From contig OY811979.1 in the NCBI GenBank assembly GCA_963681505.1, positions 6,891,332-6,955,331 of the forward strand: 64,000 nt of DNA, in the 5' to 3' direction. The stretch comes from Eunapius fragilis (taxonomy: Eukaryota; Porifera; Demospongiae; Spongillida; Spongillidae). Numbering within the stretch: position 1 is the stretch's first letter; every line of letters begins with the position of its first letter. A program made the translations under genes and the position numbers. The notes beneath the pieces were generated by a model. That model did not search any database, was not told the DNA's origin, and was given only the letters and a program-made list of their open reading frames with translations. Positions 2,248 through 57,277 of the stretch are shown in pieces.

Positions 2248-3491
2248 TGCGCGGAAGTATACCGTATATACAGAGTAGAGCAGACACTGCATACTAAGTC
2301 ATATACGGATACGTATGCAGAAACTCTAGTATCCGGACACATATGGGGACTCGTATGTGAAAAGACTAGTATGAAGAGCAGAATGCTGTGCAGTATTTAG
2401 AGGGGCCGAATGCGGAGTAGTAAGAACGGGAAATGCGGATCGATTTAACAAGTGGAAATACGCATGCCTGTATAAGCTTCTTGTGCAGCATTCATAAAGA
2501 AGCAACGCGCTTGTCTGCGGACAGCTGTGGTGGAGCTACTGTAGCTTTAATCCTTGGTGGCTTGGTCAGCAGGCATCACTGATAATAATCTTTTTTTAAA
2601 AATTAATTATTTTATTTGGTTATCTGTATCACGTGACTAGCACTTAGTTTAATACACGTTCATTTATGCTGCAGATCATCGCGACCTGAGCCTGTTTCTA
2701 TTTTTGTAGTTGGGCTCAAATGTTAAGCGAAGTATATATTTGAACGTGCTTTATAGCTTGAATTGGGTATGGCCAGTCGAATCACTGGTGACTCAGGAAT
2801 GATATAGACTGGGTTATTAACTTTACAAGCTGTATATGTTGTCATGCCTCGTTGTTATGATGCCACGCCCTCTTTTCTTACAACACAAGGTTGTATACAG
2901 ACCCACTTGTGATATAGCCCGATTCAGTGAAGGAAGAACATCAGAGTAGTTTTTTCGCATTCAGCGAGCCGTGAAGCAACGGCAGTTTATAAAGACTAAG
3001 AGGGTATGGCAAATTAATGCCTCCAAGCGTGCCCGTCGTAATTGATAATATTGTTCGTATACCTTTGTGTGAAAGAAACTAGCTGAGTCAACAAAGAGCC
3101 CTGCATGTCTGAATAATAATGTGGTGAAGCAAATATTTCTATACATAGATCTATACTGGTTGTTTATACAATATGACAATATTGTCTCGAACATGTCATA
3201 TACGGTATAGTGTGCGTGTGTGTGTGTGTGATAGTGGGCGGATTTATAATTAACCCTTCAAAATAGGATGATACTCAAATGCTCGTAACAGACCCTGGGC
3301 CTTTCAATTTTACTGTCTATATACGAATTTATGATTTTGGCGCGCAAAAATGGCTGGTGACTCTCCTTGCATGGCTGGCCTAGACCTGAACAGGACTCGG
3401 TAACTTATCTCGATCATTTTTCTGCTTTGTTCCTTTGCGAGGTATGACCTCTACCAACACGGTAATGTACTATTCGTATGTCCTCTTCGTA
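2248..3491. other. Intergenic, nothing recognised
   Basis: This holds a short GT run near 3211-3231 and mixed-composition DNA. I found no supportable gene or mobile-element boundary. Confidence 0.4.
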
Positions 3492-5560
3492 TAGGGTAGC
3501 GTCAGGTATGGTCGCCAGTGCAGGAGTGCTCGCCACTCTTCCTTTCAAACGTGGCGCTAGGGCTTACGTAACGTTTGTATGTCTTGGCACAAAATGGAAG
3601 TAATACTCCTGGGACTCTGTGTTTACGGTACTTTGTTCAAGTTTTATTTACTATTAACGTTTTTGCAAAATAATTATACAAAGTTAGCTACCTCATTTAT
3701 AGGTAAAATGGCGCGGTAAATACCGCACAATTGCTGGCGGGTTCTATTGGTGCAAGTGAGTGTTAGCGAAGTATGTAGCACAGATTGGCGTAAAATCGTG
3801 CTATTATAGAAGAGCAGTTATTTCTGTACAATGTACTTAGCTTTGTTTTAAAATAAACCTTTTGAGTCAAGAATTAGTGAGGGTGGCGAACACTCCAACT
3901 GAATTTACGCTCGTAAGTAGTAGTCGCCAGGGGTGGCGACTACTCCTACCTCCACAAATTATGTCTTTAGGCTTAAATTGGCAACCATTCGGCTCCCAAA
4001 TGTGTCCTATATCTTGAGTGCTAAGCGTTTGAGGTTTGTATGTTGTGGAGGAGTGTTCGCCATAGGGGTACATAACGGGTTGTATCTCATTCCGCATGCG
4101 GTCCTTTCAGCTAAAAGCTTATTAAATGTAGGCCTATAGCATATCAAGCTTAGCTGGAGAGAGTACAGCTACTTCTGCAAATACAGAGAAGATTATCTTG
4201 AACTTAGACCTAGCTTACATATGCTGTACATGCATAAAATGAAGTAATATCATATTGTAGTGTTCTGTAATGGAGTGAGAATTCAGCTGAGAGCATGGAT
4301 GCAGCTCTGAAGGAAGTGAGGGAGGGTAATATGCATCCCTGGGCCTTCGCATGGATGATAACACTATATCTGCATAGCCATTGGCCTTCGTCTGGGGGCC
4401 CCACTTTGCATCCTCACATTTGCCACCACTGTGGATCAAATGTGGACATGCTCAGCACACACAGTTGTCGTTTTAGTGCTGGCCGCCACTTCTACCATGA
4501 CATGCTGAATGAAGGATATTCTGCACAGGGCTTTGTCCTCTGCCAATGTTCCTTCTCAGCTAGAGCCTACTGGTCTTGATCAGATGGTAAGCATCCTGAT
4601 GGAATCACCATGGTACCATGGTCGAATCGAATTGTTGGTTTGGGATGCAATCTGCGTAGACACTTTTGCCACTTCCCATCTATCCATGACAGCCTCTGAA
4701 TTATGTGCAACAGCGAACCAAGCAGAGCAGACCAAGATCATGAAGTACAATTACCTCACTTCCCATGCATACAATTCCTTCACACCTGTTGCCTTTGAAA
4801 CAACTGGAGTGTCGCTCCATTTCTTTCCTATCAGACTTGGGTCACCGCATAGCTAACACCACTGGTGACAAAAGCCCTCTAGCATACCTCCTGCAAAGGT
4901 TTTCTGTTGCCATTCAGAGGGGGAATGCTGCATCTCTCAATTAAATAAAAACTTATGTGACATCTAAAACATGGAGCCTGATAAGGCACTATGCCATTGT
5001 TGATCACATATCATTTGTAACCTGATCCATCTTCTCAGCAACCATAACATTACAGTAGCTAATTAATATTGGCATGGCACTATCTTATAACGGTACATAT
5101 ACTTCAATCCTTAGCTGTATATACAATTTCGGCAGTAAAAGAAGTAGTATGAATGAATGGTCGCCTCCTATACTAGTAACAAATACAAAGTGAAGCTTTC
5201 CTGGGGTGGTTAAAGGCTGCTCCATACTTGATAACTTGGTTGAGCAATGTTGTGTTACAATCCACCTTCCATGCGCTACGTAACAACGAAATACAGGGGG
5301 GTGGCGAGCACTCCTACCATACGTGGCGACAGACCAACCGCACTGGCGACTATACCAGAAATCCGCTTAATTGGATAAAACAGTTGTTTTCTTTCGTACG
5401 GAGCACGTTTTTTGATAAACGAAGCGCTAGTAGTATAGAGTGATAGCTGACGATCTCTTGGGGTCAGGTATGTTTGTATAATTATCCTTCCTGTTTGCTG
5501 TATATTCAAGACAACCGATATCGGCACTCGCGGGTGGCGACCACTACCTACGCTACCCTA
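3492..5560. mobile_element. TIR element of about 2.07 kb with TGGCGA subterminal repeats
   Basis: The left end (TAGGGTAGCGTCAGGTATGG at 3492) and right end (inverse complement of TAGGGTAGCGTAGGTAGTGG at 5560) match apart from small indels. Flanking TA dinucleotides would fit a TA target site. Inside, variants of TGGCGA-N-(N)-ACTCCTACC recur in both orientations near 3520, 3885, 3930, 4050, 5300 and 5530, which look like subterminal transposase-binding repeats. No transposase is visible; the centre carries the retrotransposon tail at 4295-4945. Boundaries are inferred from the inverted ends alone. Confidence 0.45.
4295..4945 (+). pseudogene. Non-LTR retrotransposon C-terminal fragment (zinc knuckle plus endonuclease-like tail)
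   Basis: A broken coding stretch shows a C-x2-C...H...C cluster (CHHCGS...STHSC) followed by a segment moving through at least three frames: LHRALSSANVP, then DGKHPDGITMVPW in another frame, then WDAICVDT, then FTPVAFETTGV and a final AYLLQRFSVAIQRGNA. This order (CCHC-type cluster, a PDG motif, W-D-x-x-V-x-D, then a long helical tail) matches the C-terminal tail of reverse-transcriptase proteins of cnidarian and sponge retrotransposons. The PD...D pair resembles a PD-(D/E)XK nuclease. The reverse-transcriptase domain is absent, so this is a 5'-truncated, frameshifted copy. Confidence 0.6.
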
Positions 5561-52107: not shown

Positions 52108-53263
52108 TCAGCATACATGTGGGGTTGCCCCCTTGCGAGGTTTGCTGCAGCATATGATGTACACGCAGAGTGCTACAGTAACCAGCACCAGGGTGGCTCC
52201 ACCCCCTGCGGCAGTACCTACAATCACAGGCAATGGAGAAGTTTGGAAAAGGCGAGGGGTACACCAGGTGATGTTGGGAGCAGGTTGCACAGTAGGAGAG
52301 CAACTAACAGTGATGTTGGCTGATATGGCTGGAAGCATAATGAAATAGCAATCATTCAAATAGGGAGTTTTGATATAATTTAATAACTTACCCTTCTTTC
52401 TTGTGACAGCTAGCCGCATAAAAACACCAGCAGATGGATATGATGGAATAGAGTTCTGAGTCACGATGCATATGTAGGTTCCTCCATCACTGTCCTGAGC
52501 ACCACTCAGTACAAGTGTTCGATGGTCACTGGAGAAGTTCACCGTTGGCTCCTTTAGTTCTGTCCTGTTCCCTCCTGGGCCCAACTTGAACCATGTGATG
52601 CTTGTATTTGGGGGGTCAGGAACACCAGAGACATACACCTTCAGCTGTCCACTGGAGCCTGCCTCAACGCTGATATCATCACAGACTGCATGGACGGCTG
52701 GGTTAGCTGCAAGTGAAGTGCATGTGTGGGAGGGAAAGGTAATACAAATACATACAGTGCTGGATTGATTTTATTTCAGACGCTATTAGTGGTCAAATTA
52801 AACCGTGGGAAGCATATCATACAAGTGAGGGCTGTACATACCACTCACCACTTGTGATGTTAATAGTCACAGACTCATTGGTTGTATTGTCAGAACACGT
52901 GTAGATACCAAGATCACTGTTGGTAAATCTATCCAACACAAGGCGCCTTCCATTTGCCACTGTCTGTATCCAGTAAGCATTAATAGCCAAAGGTCCCGTC
53001 CAACCAACACCAGCTCCATTACTAGAGGTTGTGTTACAGTCCAAGTTATCACTGAAAGTAGTCAGGCCAATCCATGTGGCCAGTCTTTCAACCATCCAGG
53101 ATTGGGTGGGGTTAATGTTTGGAGGGATTGGCTGACGATAGTGATAGATCTGGAGACCTGTGCGAATAAGGGAGTTCACGTGCATGAAAATTGCTCCGTT
53201 TGTGTCCGTTAATAGGCCTACATAACACAAGGACGCTATAATGTACCAACGCCTAATATACAT
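52108..53263 (-). CDS. Small two-Ig-domain type I membrane receptor, complete three-exon gene
   Basis: Exons 53263-52849, 52706-52392 and 52328-52108 join in phase 1 with AG/GT borders to give 316 residues without a stop. The start MYIRRWYIIASLCYVGLL looks like a signal peptide. Ig domain 1 has the paired cysteines in NLDCNTTS and SDLGIYTCSDN. Ig domain 2 has VHAVCDD, a tryptophan in SITWFKLG, and DSDGGTYICIV. A short third segment (ANITVSCSPTVQPAPNITWC) precedes a membrane helix (VIVGTAAGGGATLVLVTVAL...) and a short cytosolic tail KPRKGATPHVC ending at TGA. Several N-x-S/T sites are present. It should act at the cell surface in adhesion or recognition; the ligand is unknown and the tail has no ITAM-like motif. 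An upstream in-frame ATG at 53425 exists, but 53263 gives the signal peptide. Confidence 0.8.
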
Positions 53264-53519
53264 AATCAACCAACGTCTACCGCACGACCTGGGCGGGCAT
53301 ATCATGCTCACTTGTACATGCGCGCGCTCTGACCTCTGACGCAAAGCAAGAAATCGAGGACCAGCTGCAAAGTCCACCAAAAATTCATGGTATGACAGTA
53401 CAACAATGGCGTAGGAACGGTTCAAATAGTGGAGGGGGGTTAAATTATTAATTCATGTTAAGTGGGTGTGGTTATTCGTGGCCGTGCACTTGCTTTGACT
53501 TTGTCGCCATGCAAGGGGC

Positions 53520-54185
53520 TGGGCGGATACAGGATAGAGGGTTGAGACACGCGATACGAAAAACAAGGGGGGGGGGGGGGGGGGGGAAGTGTACGCTTCA
53601 GGCACAATGCGAAATGTGGGGGTGGGGGGGGAGGCTGCTTAGCGAAGAGGGGGAGATACATGCAGCGGCGGATCCAGGGGGGGGGCACTCGGGGCACGTG
53701 CCCCCCCCCCCCCCCCCCCCCTTCATTTATAAATTCATAACTTTTCGGGCCGCATTTTATAATATAGCTGCACGATTGCGCTGTCTATTGATATCCGCAC
53801 GCATGAACTCTACTACTGTACTATATCCCGGGCCCCCCGATACGCGACCATACTCCCCCCCCCCCCCCCCCCCCCCGCCCTTCGTATCGGGCCAGAAACC
53901 GACAGCACCCCCCCCCCCCCCCCCCCCCCCCCGCTCTTCGTTTTGGGCCAGAATCCGACAGCACCCCCCCCCCCCCCCCCCCCCCCCGCTCCTCGTATCG
54001 GGCCATAAACCGACAGCACCCCCCCCCCCCCCCCCCCGCTTTTCATATCGGGCCAGAAGCCGACCCCACCCCCAGCCACACCCACCATCCGTGCCCCCCC
54101 CCCCCCCCAAAACCTGTATCCGCCGCTGGATCATACATGTACCTTATAAACCCCCCTTCCCCTTTTGTATCCGCCACGGCTGTTT
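53520..54185. mobile_element. Nested TIR elements with poly-C/G minisatellite
   Basis: An outer pair (GGGCGGATACAGGATAG near 53522 and TTTTGTATCCGCC near 54162) encloses an inner pair CAGCGGCGGATCCAGG (53662) and the inverse of CAGCGGCGGATACAGG (54129). Between them, four tandem units of about 65 bp each hold TCGGGCCAGAAACCGACAGC and a 19-24-base C run (53855-54050). Neither pair has a clear target duplication. On the minus strand the runs are oligo-G with strong quadruplex potential. Confidence 0.65.
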
Positions 54186-54639
54186 GCGGCTGGAAACTTA
54201 GTTTATAAATAGAATTTTACGGTATTAGTTAACATCCTCTTAGCAACCAGCATAGCAACCAAGTATGCTTCGAAACGCTCGATGTGTCTGGTATCGGGTG
54301 GCAATGTACAAGGTTTGGCACGTAGCATATTGTGGGGCAGTCCTAGATGGATTTCGTGTCCCAAGCACGCAACTTCAGTTTTTGGTTCCTGTCTACTGCG
54401 CACGTGTTTTCTGAGCTACATTTACAACGAGTGGTTCGAGCGGTGTGCATAGAAGGTCACTTTTTCAGCTTCCTGCAGTTTTCCCAGCGATTCTGCCAAC
54501 GTGTCTGTGTTCCTGTGTCATTACACAACACGTATAAAGTAACCAGGTATAATGAGTGTTTTTTTCTCGTATTCTATAATATGGCAAAAATCGTTGACTT
54601 TCACGTAGTTGGAGGTGAGCGCTTGCGTAAAGTCACACA
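54186..54639. other. Upstream region of the RAG1-N-like gene
   Basis: No transposon terminus or promoter element could be identified with confidence. Confidence 0.35.
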
Positions 54640-55491
54640 ATGGCGGAACATGTACACCATTTAGCAAAGATATGCAGGATTTGTGCTAGGCTTTGCACAT
54701 CTACAAGACGCAAAGTACCTATCTACAGTTGTATCTCATATACTTCAGACCTATTAATTGTATTCGGAATAAGTGTCAGCAATGATCTGCCATCCACACA
54801 TCCTACCTCATTTTGCTACTTGTGCTACCAAACCATTGCATCTTATAAGAAGGCACTAGATAGCGGAAGATCATACAATGTGTGCACTGTGGTTTTTGAT
54901 GGTTGGATATCACACAATGACGATGTGTGTAGGGTGTGTGAGCAAGGGAGAAAATGTAATAGGGGAGGGAGACCAAAGAAGATCAAGTTAGATGGTAGAC
55001 CTCCAGAAATTCCAATGAGGAATTTAGTCCATCACATTGGGTTGATAGCACCACCGCTTCTTGTATCATTTACTGAAGAGCCACCCAAATTGGTGGGTAA
55101 TGCATCTAGAGATAGCGCTATGTGTCCACTGTGTCTCGAAGTCCTCAACAGCCCAATTGAGTTAGTTACATGTGGAGCTATAGTATGCTCCAAATGTTGC
55201 TGCTCTTGGCTTGAAGTCAAGCATGAGCTTGTGTGTCCCTGTTGTTATGGGGATCATTTGAAAGATGCTGCTACAATAAGACCACCATGTTGCCTTGCTT
55301 TAGACACACTAAGCAGTATCAGTGTTGCTTGCAGTCGATGCAAAAACAAATTTCCACTATCAGACTACACACCTCATTTGCAAAGCTCATGTCAGTATGT
55401 TCCAGTGGATGGTGTACTTCAAGAGATTCTTCACAATCCTGTGACTGAGCCCCTATCTCCTGTTGAAATGGCGAGTTTTCCAACTCTCTAG
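54640..55491 (+). CDS. RAG1 N-terminal-like zinc-binding protein (transposon-associated)
   Basis: This is a 283-residue open frame from ATG 54640. Residues 12-106 hold the first zinc module: CRIC (12-15), HPTSFCYLC (54-62) and W89-x2-H92-x4-CRVC (97-100), aligned with CRIC, HPTEFCHNC and W-x-P-H...CDIC of vertebrate RAG1. GGRPKK (109-114) is AT-hook-like and recalls the GGRPR of the RAG1 nonamer-binding region. Residues 162-202 are a RING-like domain (C162-x2-C165, C178, C183-x2-C186, C199-x2-C202); the usual RING histidine position is A180. A C2HC finger follows (C231, C234, H246, C251) as in RAG1 after its RING. In RAG1 these parts give ubiquitin-ligase activity and dimerisation. There is no RAG1 catalytic core in this frame; it ends in VEMASFPTL at TAG. 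Decayed exons of a DDE-like transposase follow at 55673-56625. It is either a truncated exon of a transposon gene or a separate zinc protein. Confidence 0.85.
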   Translation: MAEHVHHLAKICRICARLCTSTRRKVPIYSCISYTSDLLIVFGISVSNDLPSTHPTSFCYLCYQTIASYKKALDSGRSYNVCTVVFDGWISHNDDVCRVCEQGRKCNRGGRPKKIKLDGRPPEIPMRNLVHHIGLIAPPLLVSFTEEPPKLVGNASRDSAMCPLCLEVLNSPIELVTCGAIVCSKCCCSWLEVKHELVCPCCYGDHLKDAATIRPPCCLALDTLSSISVACSRCKNKFPLSDYTPHLQSSCQYVPVDGVLQEILHNPVTEPLSPVEMASFPTL

Positions 55492-55495
55492 TTTA

Positions 55496-55662
55496 CTATA
55501 GAAAATTGGCGACGAGGGTGGGATGGAAACGGCACGTTCGTCAGACCCTTTCGACTCTGACGTGGAAAAGTATCGACGACTATAAGGAAAGGTTTGACTA
55601 CTATTGTACGGCCCATGGGATAGCCGACGAAAGGACGAAGGCCTTGTTCTTGGAGTGAAATC
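55496..55662 (+). mobile_element. Gypsy-type LTR retrotransposon fragment (PBS region and gag start)
   Basis: AATTGGCGACGAGGGTGG resembles the junction just inside a 5' LTR of Gypsy elements. It is followed by a broken gag-like start: PFDSDVEK, then (shifted) YKERFDYYCTAHGIADERTK and ALFL. There is no LTR or pol, and it lies between the RAG1-N-like frame and the transposase-like exons. Confidence 0.55.
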
Positions 55663-55672
55663 CAGTATCCAG

Positions 55673-56625
55673 ATGATGGAAGAGATTCTACTCCTAAATC
55701 TTTCTCTATCACCTGAGGAGCTAACAAATTATGCAACTGTGATTCATAGCATTTGCACATACATATGTGAATGATTCATAGCATTTGCACATACATATGT
55801 GAAATGAAAAAGAGGGAAAGTGAACTGGTAAAAATATAGTAAGTAAGCAATAAAATAAAAATTGCAGAAACCTTACTTTTACATGCATCTCAGCTAGCAA
55901 AACTCAATCGTACACTCCAAAAGGTGTTCCACAAAGAAGAAGGTCCCTTTGTCAAAGCTCTTGACAATGCATTGGCCTCCTTCCATGTACAGTGTCAAGC
56001 CTACTATAGTGGTGCATTTGTGGACAACCATGTCCATAGAGCCCTAAAGGCAGGATGAAAATTTTTAAAGATATGTCATGGTAGTTTTCTCTCTATTAGG
56101 TCAGCAACACCGCAACAAAACAACACTGTCCATCACTTTTGAGCGAAGTAGAAGTTATAAGCCAGAAGTATTTAAAGGTACTTACCCTATTTCAGAAGTG
56201 CCATACCACATATGATAAAAATGTGGTTACGGATGTTGAAGTTAATGCTCTAGGTATGTTTAATAAGCAGAAATAAATCCAATTGATTTAATGCTTGTGT
56301 CTACAGAACAAGATATCAGCAACTTTATGCAGTTCTACCGTGTTAATTTTCCCAATGCTACTGTAACCCTTAAAATGCACATACTTGAGTCTCATGTGGT
56401 ACCCTTCTTAAGACGATGGCATTTTGGTTTTGGCTACTTAGGGGAGCAGGGTATTGAAAGCATACATCGTATTTCAATAACCTTGTTCGCACATATAACT
56501 CTGTTAAGCAACCTGCACAGAAATTATTATTAATGTTAAAAGAGCATATGTTACACATAACACCAATTAATGTAGCTGCTAGGCCTGAAGTAAAACACTA
56601 CAAAAAGAAAAGTAAGCAATTTTAG
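55673..56625 (+). pseudogene. DDE-like transposase exons downstream of the RAG1-N-like frame, decayed
   Basis: Pieces in order: MMEEILLLNLSLSPEELTNY (55673 on, with a 33-bp tandem duplication before the stop); exon from 55868 with AKLNRTLQKVFHKEEGPFVK and QCQAYYSGAFVDNHVHRALK; exon 56100-56253 (LLSEVEVISQKYLKVL); exon from 56307 (DISNFMQFYRVNFP, LKMHILESHVVPFLRRW, FGYLGEQGIESIHR). After a one-base shift near 56472 it continues NLVRTYNSVKQPAQKLLLML and KEHMLHITPINVAARPEVK to TAG 56623. The H-I-L-x-x-H-V-V-P-F-L...G-E-Q-G-x-E-S order is a family I recall from cnidarian and sponge repeats. It runs parallel to the RAG1 stretch around its third catalytic acid (SEGNESGNK), so homology to RAG1/Transib-type DDE enzymes is plausible but unproven. 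The donor after RALK is GC rather than GT. Confidence 0.6.
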
Positions 56626-57277
56626 GTGAGTAAATGTCTGCGTATTCATGTATGTTCATTTAATTGTACTGGTGCAATTGCATTTCAGCTGAGATGCTAC
56701 CTGAACGAACCTACATAATGTTTGTATAGTAATTAATACCTTTATGTGCGATTTTGTGATTCACTGTGTAATTATTATGAGTGTTTCACGACTTGTAGGT
56801 AGCCACATTGGATATGCAATATACGGATTAAAAAAAGGTCTCATAACAATTGCTCTGCATAATCTGGTAGCTAACTTGGCTAGCTTTTTAGTTCTTTTAA
56901 ACATTTCCTTAGGAAAACTGCAGGAGTAGCCGTATAATTGAAATACGTTATGTGATTTATGGTCAAACAACGCGTGAAATAATAGAAATTAAAAATCAGA
57001 AAGCACATAAAAACAGAGTCAGGGGACTGCTTCATTCATCTTAAAAGTTTTGAGACGTGGCTACGCTCCCACGCACTTGTAAGCCATTGTGAAGCGACAT
57101 GCCTCCATGGTATCCAAGGAGGTTGCTATGGGAAATTTTTACGCGGCGCGCGCGTACTAAGTTTCCATCGATTCAATGCAATAAAACAGCCGTGCCGCCC
57201 CTGCGATGGTCTCGCTTTTAACCGATCTCAATATAATTTTATTCATAAATATGGGCACAAAATATGAGGGGGCTGAG
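56626..57277. other. Intergenic, nothing recognised
   Basis: No supportable gene or right-hand transposon end was found for the RAG1-N-like element. Confidence 0.4.

Follow-up and report, generated by a model that had tools for sequence, protein, structure and literature searches.

A stretch of 64,000 nucleotides from the freshwater sponge Eunapius fragilis (assembly GCA_963681505.1, contig OY811979.1, positions 6,891,332 to 6,955,331 of the forward strand; hereafter the window) contains an open frame for a 283-amino-acid (aa) protein resembling the N-terminal third of RAG1, followed by a short retroelement-like piece and by decayed transposase exons (Table 1). Here, we provide evidence that these parts belong to one element, very probably a Chapaev (CMC-group) cut-and-paste DNA transposon that became non-autonomous through internal deletion.

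The frame is uninterrupted from ATG to stop, and its final few residues are encoded by the inserted piece. It carries the motifs that an initial annotation of this DNA had ascribed to it, CRIC (residues 12-15), HPTSFCYLC (54-62), W-x2-H...CRVC (89-100) and GGRPKK (109-114); the module limits in Table 1 are borrowed from a full-length relative. The Pfam model RAG1_imp_bd matches residues 38-107 with 29.9 bits (cut-off 23.3, E 5.4e-7), and three Pfam RING models fall on residues 161/162-202, all under their own cut-offs. As a single sequence the protein has weak matches among the PDB sequences (BRCA1 RING, E 8.4e-4; RAG1 N-terminal fragment 21wb, E 0.006). Combined into a profile, 24 relatives with no RAG1 sequence among them matched full-length RAG1 (6oem, 9jpu) over residues 102-382 in a single collinear stretch (E 5.8e-28) and the RAG1 N-terminal fragment without RING at E 3.7e-11, the best RING outside RAG1 being RNF125 (E 7.6e-14). 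The alignment pairs, in order, the CRxC, the HPxxFCxxC, the Trp-His-CxxC stretch, the RING cysteines and the next finger, so that an N-terminal zinc module, a RING and a zinc finger follow one another as in RAG1. Because of this collinear match and this pairing, the zinc part is, as judged from sequence profiles, homologous to the N-terminal third of RAG1 and not to its RING alone. The resemblance thus exceeds chance, and the profile search that the annotation had proposed places the protein with RAG1 rather than in a generic RING family. A search with profile A3 for RAG1/RAG1L proteins, in which only the 7990 candidates with the most shared words were scored, returned 24 proteins, none of them named RAG1.

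Two full-length copies in the same genome, C23 (4467 bp) and C2 (4464 bp), have the ends of the window element and are 99.91% identical to each other. Each starts with CAC and finishes with GTG, is flanked by a 4-bp target duplication and contains nine exon-like frames. Joined at predicted GT-AG introns of 46-87 bp (one GC-AG), the frames of C23 give a single 987-aa protein; those of C2, joined likewise, give 986 aa, with one histidine fewer and no inner stop. The domain order of the 987-aa protein is zinc module, RING, C2HC finger and DUF1280 core, the last matched by PF06918 with 68.5 bits (cut-off 25) over exons that are deleted in the window copy. Its RING and C2HC finger resemble the dimerization domain of RAG1. 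The annotation had tied the zinc protein to the downstream transposase by position and proposed a search for intact copies joining them; these two, with their one predicted spliced frame, inverted repeats and target duplications, place both parts in the same transposon. A second family of the same genome (L032) has the same order of parts and is 40-63% identical by stretch, with some stops in the aligned stretches; compared by codons in two exons, it gave a nonsynonymous divergence (dN) of 0.32 against a synonymous divergence (dS) of 2.98 in one and a dN of 0.30 with a dS not computable in the other, as expected for a protein under constraint. The host genome as a whole holds at least 155 matches to the zinc protein and at least 131 to DUF1280, totals that are lower bounds counted per fragment.

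The limits of the window element were mapped by DNA comparison of the window with 30 loci of the genome. The left end at 54175 is common to copies in other flanks, and so is the right end at 57194 wherever both ends were in hand. The inverted repeat CACGGCTGTTT reads inward from both ends, with a shared 12-mer, TGGAAACTTAGT, further in. A 4-bp target duplication was found in five of the six copies read at both ends (L010 has no clean one), the sequences seen being CCGC, GCCC, AGGC, TGTA and TTTC. Relative to the full-length copy, the window copy is without positions 2328-3954. This deletion, which runs from the tail of exon 1 into the early part of exon 6, has removed the two codons for the catalytic aspartates. 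The gap is occupied by a 185-bp piece, which looks like the end of a long terminal repeat (LTR) plus the sequence that follows it. The piece recurs at other sites of the genome with the spacing of an LTR retroelement, its first 40 bp lying about 4.6 kb apart in direct orientation at C20:5506202/5510777. The annotation had reported here a Gypsy fragment of about 180 bp; an LTR-retroelement-like piece of this size is indeed present, but the assignment to Gypsy was not confirmed, Pfam giving no match on the two translated pieces around the insert. Downstream, exon 6 is 32 bp longer than its counterpart because of an internal tandem duplication. In exon 9, HVVPFL lies at 56393-56410 and GEQGIES at 56441-56461; of the triad codons, only that for the third catalytic residue, Glu (56456-56458), is left. 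The decayed exons are, as had been proposed, remnants of a DDE transposase, namely of its exons 6-9; the enzyme is of the DUF1280/Chapaev class. The parallel drawn earlier with the third catalytic acid of RAG1 holds in so far as the region is in register with RAG1 residue 962 in a profile alignment, which is not significant alone.

Table 1. Features of the element in the window (window positions).
Feature	Position	Strand	Remarks
Element, 3020 bp, very probably non-autonomous Chapaev	54175..57194	+	ends common to copies in other flanks; CACGGCTGTTT inverted repeat at both ends; CCGC on each side
Target site duplication, left, CCGC	54171..54174	.	
Target site duplication, right, CCGC	57195..57198	.	
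Left terminal inverted repeat CACGGCTGTTT	54175..54185	+	
Left subterminal TGGAAACTTAGT	54191-54202		
Right terminal inverted repeat	57184..57194	-	subterminal TGGAAACTTAGT again inside, - strand
Open frame, 283 aa	54640..55491	+	RAG1-N-like zinc module, residues ~8-116; GGRPKK patch; RING, ~157-202; C2HC finger, ~230-255
185-bp LTR-retroelement-like piece	55467..55651	+	in place of late exon 1 through early exon 6
Remnant of transposase exon 6	55652..55827	+	32 bp longer than full-length counterpart
Remnant of transposase exon 7	55885..56049	+	acceptor dinucleotide lost
Remnant of transposase exon 8	56100..56253	+	internal deletion
Remnant of transposase exon 9	56307..56625	+	HVVPFL...GEQGIES, then frameshift

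Could the window copy be a sponge counterpart of N-RAG-TP, that is, an element of its own class encoding only a RAG1-N-like protein and lying by accident near unrelated transposase debris? Only the RAG1-N-like frame is intact here, the form occurs at seven places, and N-RAG-TP of Aplysia, likened by description, is made entirely of RAG1-N-like sequence according to excerpts of PMC8355894. The likeness goes no further than the preserved frame. Both parts occur together in full-length copies that have these ends, and the debris is the 3' part of this very element, 93% identical to it and with the same end. Such copies refute this reading for the window copy, which derives from a complete Chapaev by deletion, and we regard the reading as very improbable overall.

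The identical deletion junction found at those seven places shows that the shortened form was itself copied. One of the places (L001) belongs to an inverted copy of the element and its left flank about 248 kb away on the same contig (window 53001-56988 against C9:6696189-6700037), with 100% identity over 54133-56988 and 99.1% over 53001-53662, the intervening C-rich ~470 bp being missing there. The L001/window pair is a segmental duplication or an assembly duplicate, not two separate insertions. An ATG and a stop-free frame are retained at five of the seven places, two of them identical duplicates, so that the frame is undamaged in four of six distinct derivative sequences.

This retention raises the question of whether selection keeps the 283-aa protein, either as a trans-acting transposon regulator, in the manner of truncated P-element repressors, or as a host-domesticated gene. 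The frames kept open would fit such a role, as would the dN/dS below 1 (0.34-0.61) that separates the derivatives from the full-length copy; from these alignments, we read this ratio as constraint in the full-length lineage. Among the four intact derivatives (the broken L011 and L015 were excluded), dN/dS is 0.9-1.8 in five of the six pairs (e.g. dN 0.0126, dS 0.0111; dN 0.030, dS 0.017); in the remaining pair there is a single silent difference. Moreover, the first open reading frame (ORF1) has diverged about as much as the neighbouring parts, and some copies are damaged: L003 has lost one zinc cysteine, L011 its start codon with a shifted stretch besides, and L015 is frameshifted. On these three grounds the intact window frame is best explained by youth and not by a kept function, and selection on it is, in our view, very unlikely. 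A difference of 19-22% at the 3' end of L003 was set aside, this copy being interrupted there. A second deletion form, in which window position 55466 is joined to 56365 via ~365-394 bp, was observed in L008, L010, L012 and L013, each with at least one stop in the matched zinc frame.

The assignment of the full-length transposon to Chapaev is driven by several features. Chapaev is defined in excerpts of PMC4079192 by CAC...GTG ends and target duplications of 3-4 bp; here the termini are 5'-CAC ... GTG-3' with inverted repeats, and the duplications are of 4 bp. The DUF1280 core belongs to Chapaev, in one clade with RAG1 (PMC3985635, in excerpt). The residues D486, D556, C593/C596, H906/H911 and E932 are kept in all 20 aligned sequences, which puts C(2)C and H(4)H between the second D and the E; C(2)C and H(3-4)H with a DDE triad are common to EnSpm, Mirage, Chapaev, Transib and RAG1 (PMC12730594, in excerpt). 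Finally, the RAG1-N-like zinc domain followed by RING is that of a Chapaev subgroup. Chapaev3 was rejected, since none of the duplications seen is the 3-bp TWA given for it in PMC4079192 (in excerpt).

A sponge RAG1-like transposon, within the RAGL/Transib lineage proper, has in its favour the N-terminal homology and the predicted core of an Ephydatia muelleri homologue, which is RAG1-like, RAG1 rows ranking above Transib. The target duplications of 4 bp stand against the 5 bp of Transib/RAGL (PMC8355894, in excerpt), and the best core model is DUF1280. In addition, the RAG1 core model PF12940 did not match the 987-aa protein at E <= 1; nor did it match the genome, where no control matched either, so that absence there is not established. 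With neither a 5-bp duplication nor a PF12940 match in that protein this lineage was rejected, and we give it hardly any credence. The predicted core fold and the C(2)C and H(3-4)H motifs are common to Transib/RAGL and the sponge transposons. Transib differs further in being described, in excerpts of PMC8355894 and PMC7204232, as having no N-terminal region. With vertebrate RAG1 the element shares, across RAG1 residues 102-386, zinc motifs, a RING and a zinc finger in collinear order, and also the fold of the sponge homologue's predicted core; it differs in its 4-bp against a 5-bp target duplication and in a core sequence not significantly similar by profile.

Several points weigh against our reading of the window copy as a Chapaev derivative with a RAG1-like front, or narrow it. 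For the RING unit, TRAF6 and LNX score near RAG1 and Foldseek places six chains (LNX, TRAF5/6, RNF125) above 1rmd, so that the RING fold by itself is not diagnostic. The joining into a single protein goes through predicted splice sites, one of them GC-AG. The DDE profile alone finds neither RAG1 nor Transib by sequence, its matches being chance coiled coils only, and the core that was modelled is the E. muelleri one, 35% identical and not of the window's own family. The separate insertions number at most six, because one of the seven places (C9:6697497) is inside the inverted duplicated block. Lastly, given the ratios against the full-length copy, neutrality is not evident in every comparison.

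How would such an element work? By analogy with RAG1 and Transib, the full-length protein would dimerise and pair two CAC ends. CAC-type ends are a feature of Transib too. The RNase H-like site would cut at the CAC ends, which would then be inserted into new DNA with a 4-bp stagger; the zinc and RING part would keep the dimer together and might act as an E3 ubiquitin ligase. In the window copy, a retroelement-like scrap would have filled an internal gap at the cost of both catalytic aspartates, perhaps through interrupted repair after excision. Having retained the ends and most of the first exon, this copy was presumably mobilised by the transposase of full-length copies and would be mobile only with an enzyme from one of them, its 283-aa frame probably being a drifting passenger.

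Around the element, dense G or C runs with a repeated unit occupy window 53570-54110, directly to its left, and similar arrays match in L019 and L021. Further left (52108-53452, - strand), exon-like frames adjoin it that resemble, by eye, those of a protein with immunoglobulin-type domains and a transmembrane stretch. Elsewhere in the genome, a copy of 82% similarity is found twice on C18 (L022 at ~80 kb, L023 at ~93 kb), in opposite orientation ~13 kb apart. The two do not differ in score or in number of stops, and they have the look of an inverted duplication close to the end of the contig. A 1907-aa frame around the match C14:2031000 was discarded as an artefact, the stretch containing N.

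The full protein retrieved 43 proteins, many of them from E. muelleri (at most 91% identical locally), a demosponge of the order Spongillida, and others from sea urchins, sea stars, a crinoid and lancelets, with two weak ones from Caenorhabditis. Two home-made models, their seed sequences included in the set, were run on 50 proteins of at least 540 aa. Scores of at least 20 bits were reached for the zinc module as well as the RING in 15 of these, and for the zinc module in 7 that have no RING; many of the remainder may come from incomplete gene models. The tree built from 19 cores has the four RING-less rows in two separate places among 12 RING rows, and two changes are needed. This tree has a midpoint root, an open backbone and two long-branched RING rows; P0040 was dropped from it, its motif being absent, and P0020 and P0037 entered whole. 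It agrees with a RING-bearing ancestor and RING losses, short of proof.

The kind of transposon is already known, since Chapaev transposons with a Chapa domain and RING were published from lancelet and sea anemone (Kapitonov and Koonin 2015, PMC4411706, in excerpt) and DUF1280 is assigned to Chapaev. Likened by description, those elements share with ours the ends, the target duplication length, the DUF1280 DDE core and the RAG1-N-like zinc domain followed by RING; ours differs in its sponge lineage and in its spread ORF1-only derivative. What is added here is a sponge as host, evidence from profiles and from the fold, and a front-only derivative that has been amplified. Our literature searches, one query of which was weak and returned nothing on Chapaev, brought up no report of a sponge Chapaev with a RAG1-like front or of such a derivative.

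The literature offers two rival accounts of the origin of the N-terminal third of RAG1: either a Transib recombined with N-RAG-TP, an element separate from it (as retold in excerpts of PMC8355894), or the region was inherited from a common ancestor of Chapaev and Transib (section 6 of PMC4411706, in excerpt). A more far-reaching proposal, which we advance only tentatively and consider doubtful, is that the complete domain order of RAG1 is present in Chapaev elements as early as sponges, and that it extends to a counterpart of the nonamer-binding domain (NBD), with a shared GGxP motif and three helices directly before the core; RAG1 would have inherited its N-terminal third and NBD together with the core from one ancient transposase, Transib would be a stripped-down form, and front-only elements like N-RAG-TP would, like the window copy, be deletion derivatives and never donors of a separate gene. 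Structure alignments of the modelled core start at model ~231/RAG1 ~391 for NBD-bearing chains, with a larger root-mean-square deviation, and at ~289/~459 for chains without NBD. By sequence, the comparison was negative: hhalign of 14 sequences with the mouse RAG1 NBD gave a probability of 0.35% and a score of 11.1, below the best of 100 shuffles.

In conclusion, this sponge transposon has both parts in one element outside the cnidarian-bilaterian animals, in copies that are nearly identical and apparently intact, and the window copy shows a route to a front-only element, internal deletion. The full-length element is a candidate enzyme for testing the roles of the RING and the zinc module in transposition. 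A sponge Chapaev of this kind helps to test where RAG1, which rearranges the antibody genes of vertebrates, obtained its front part.
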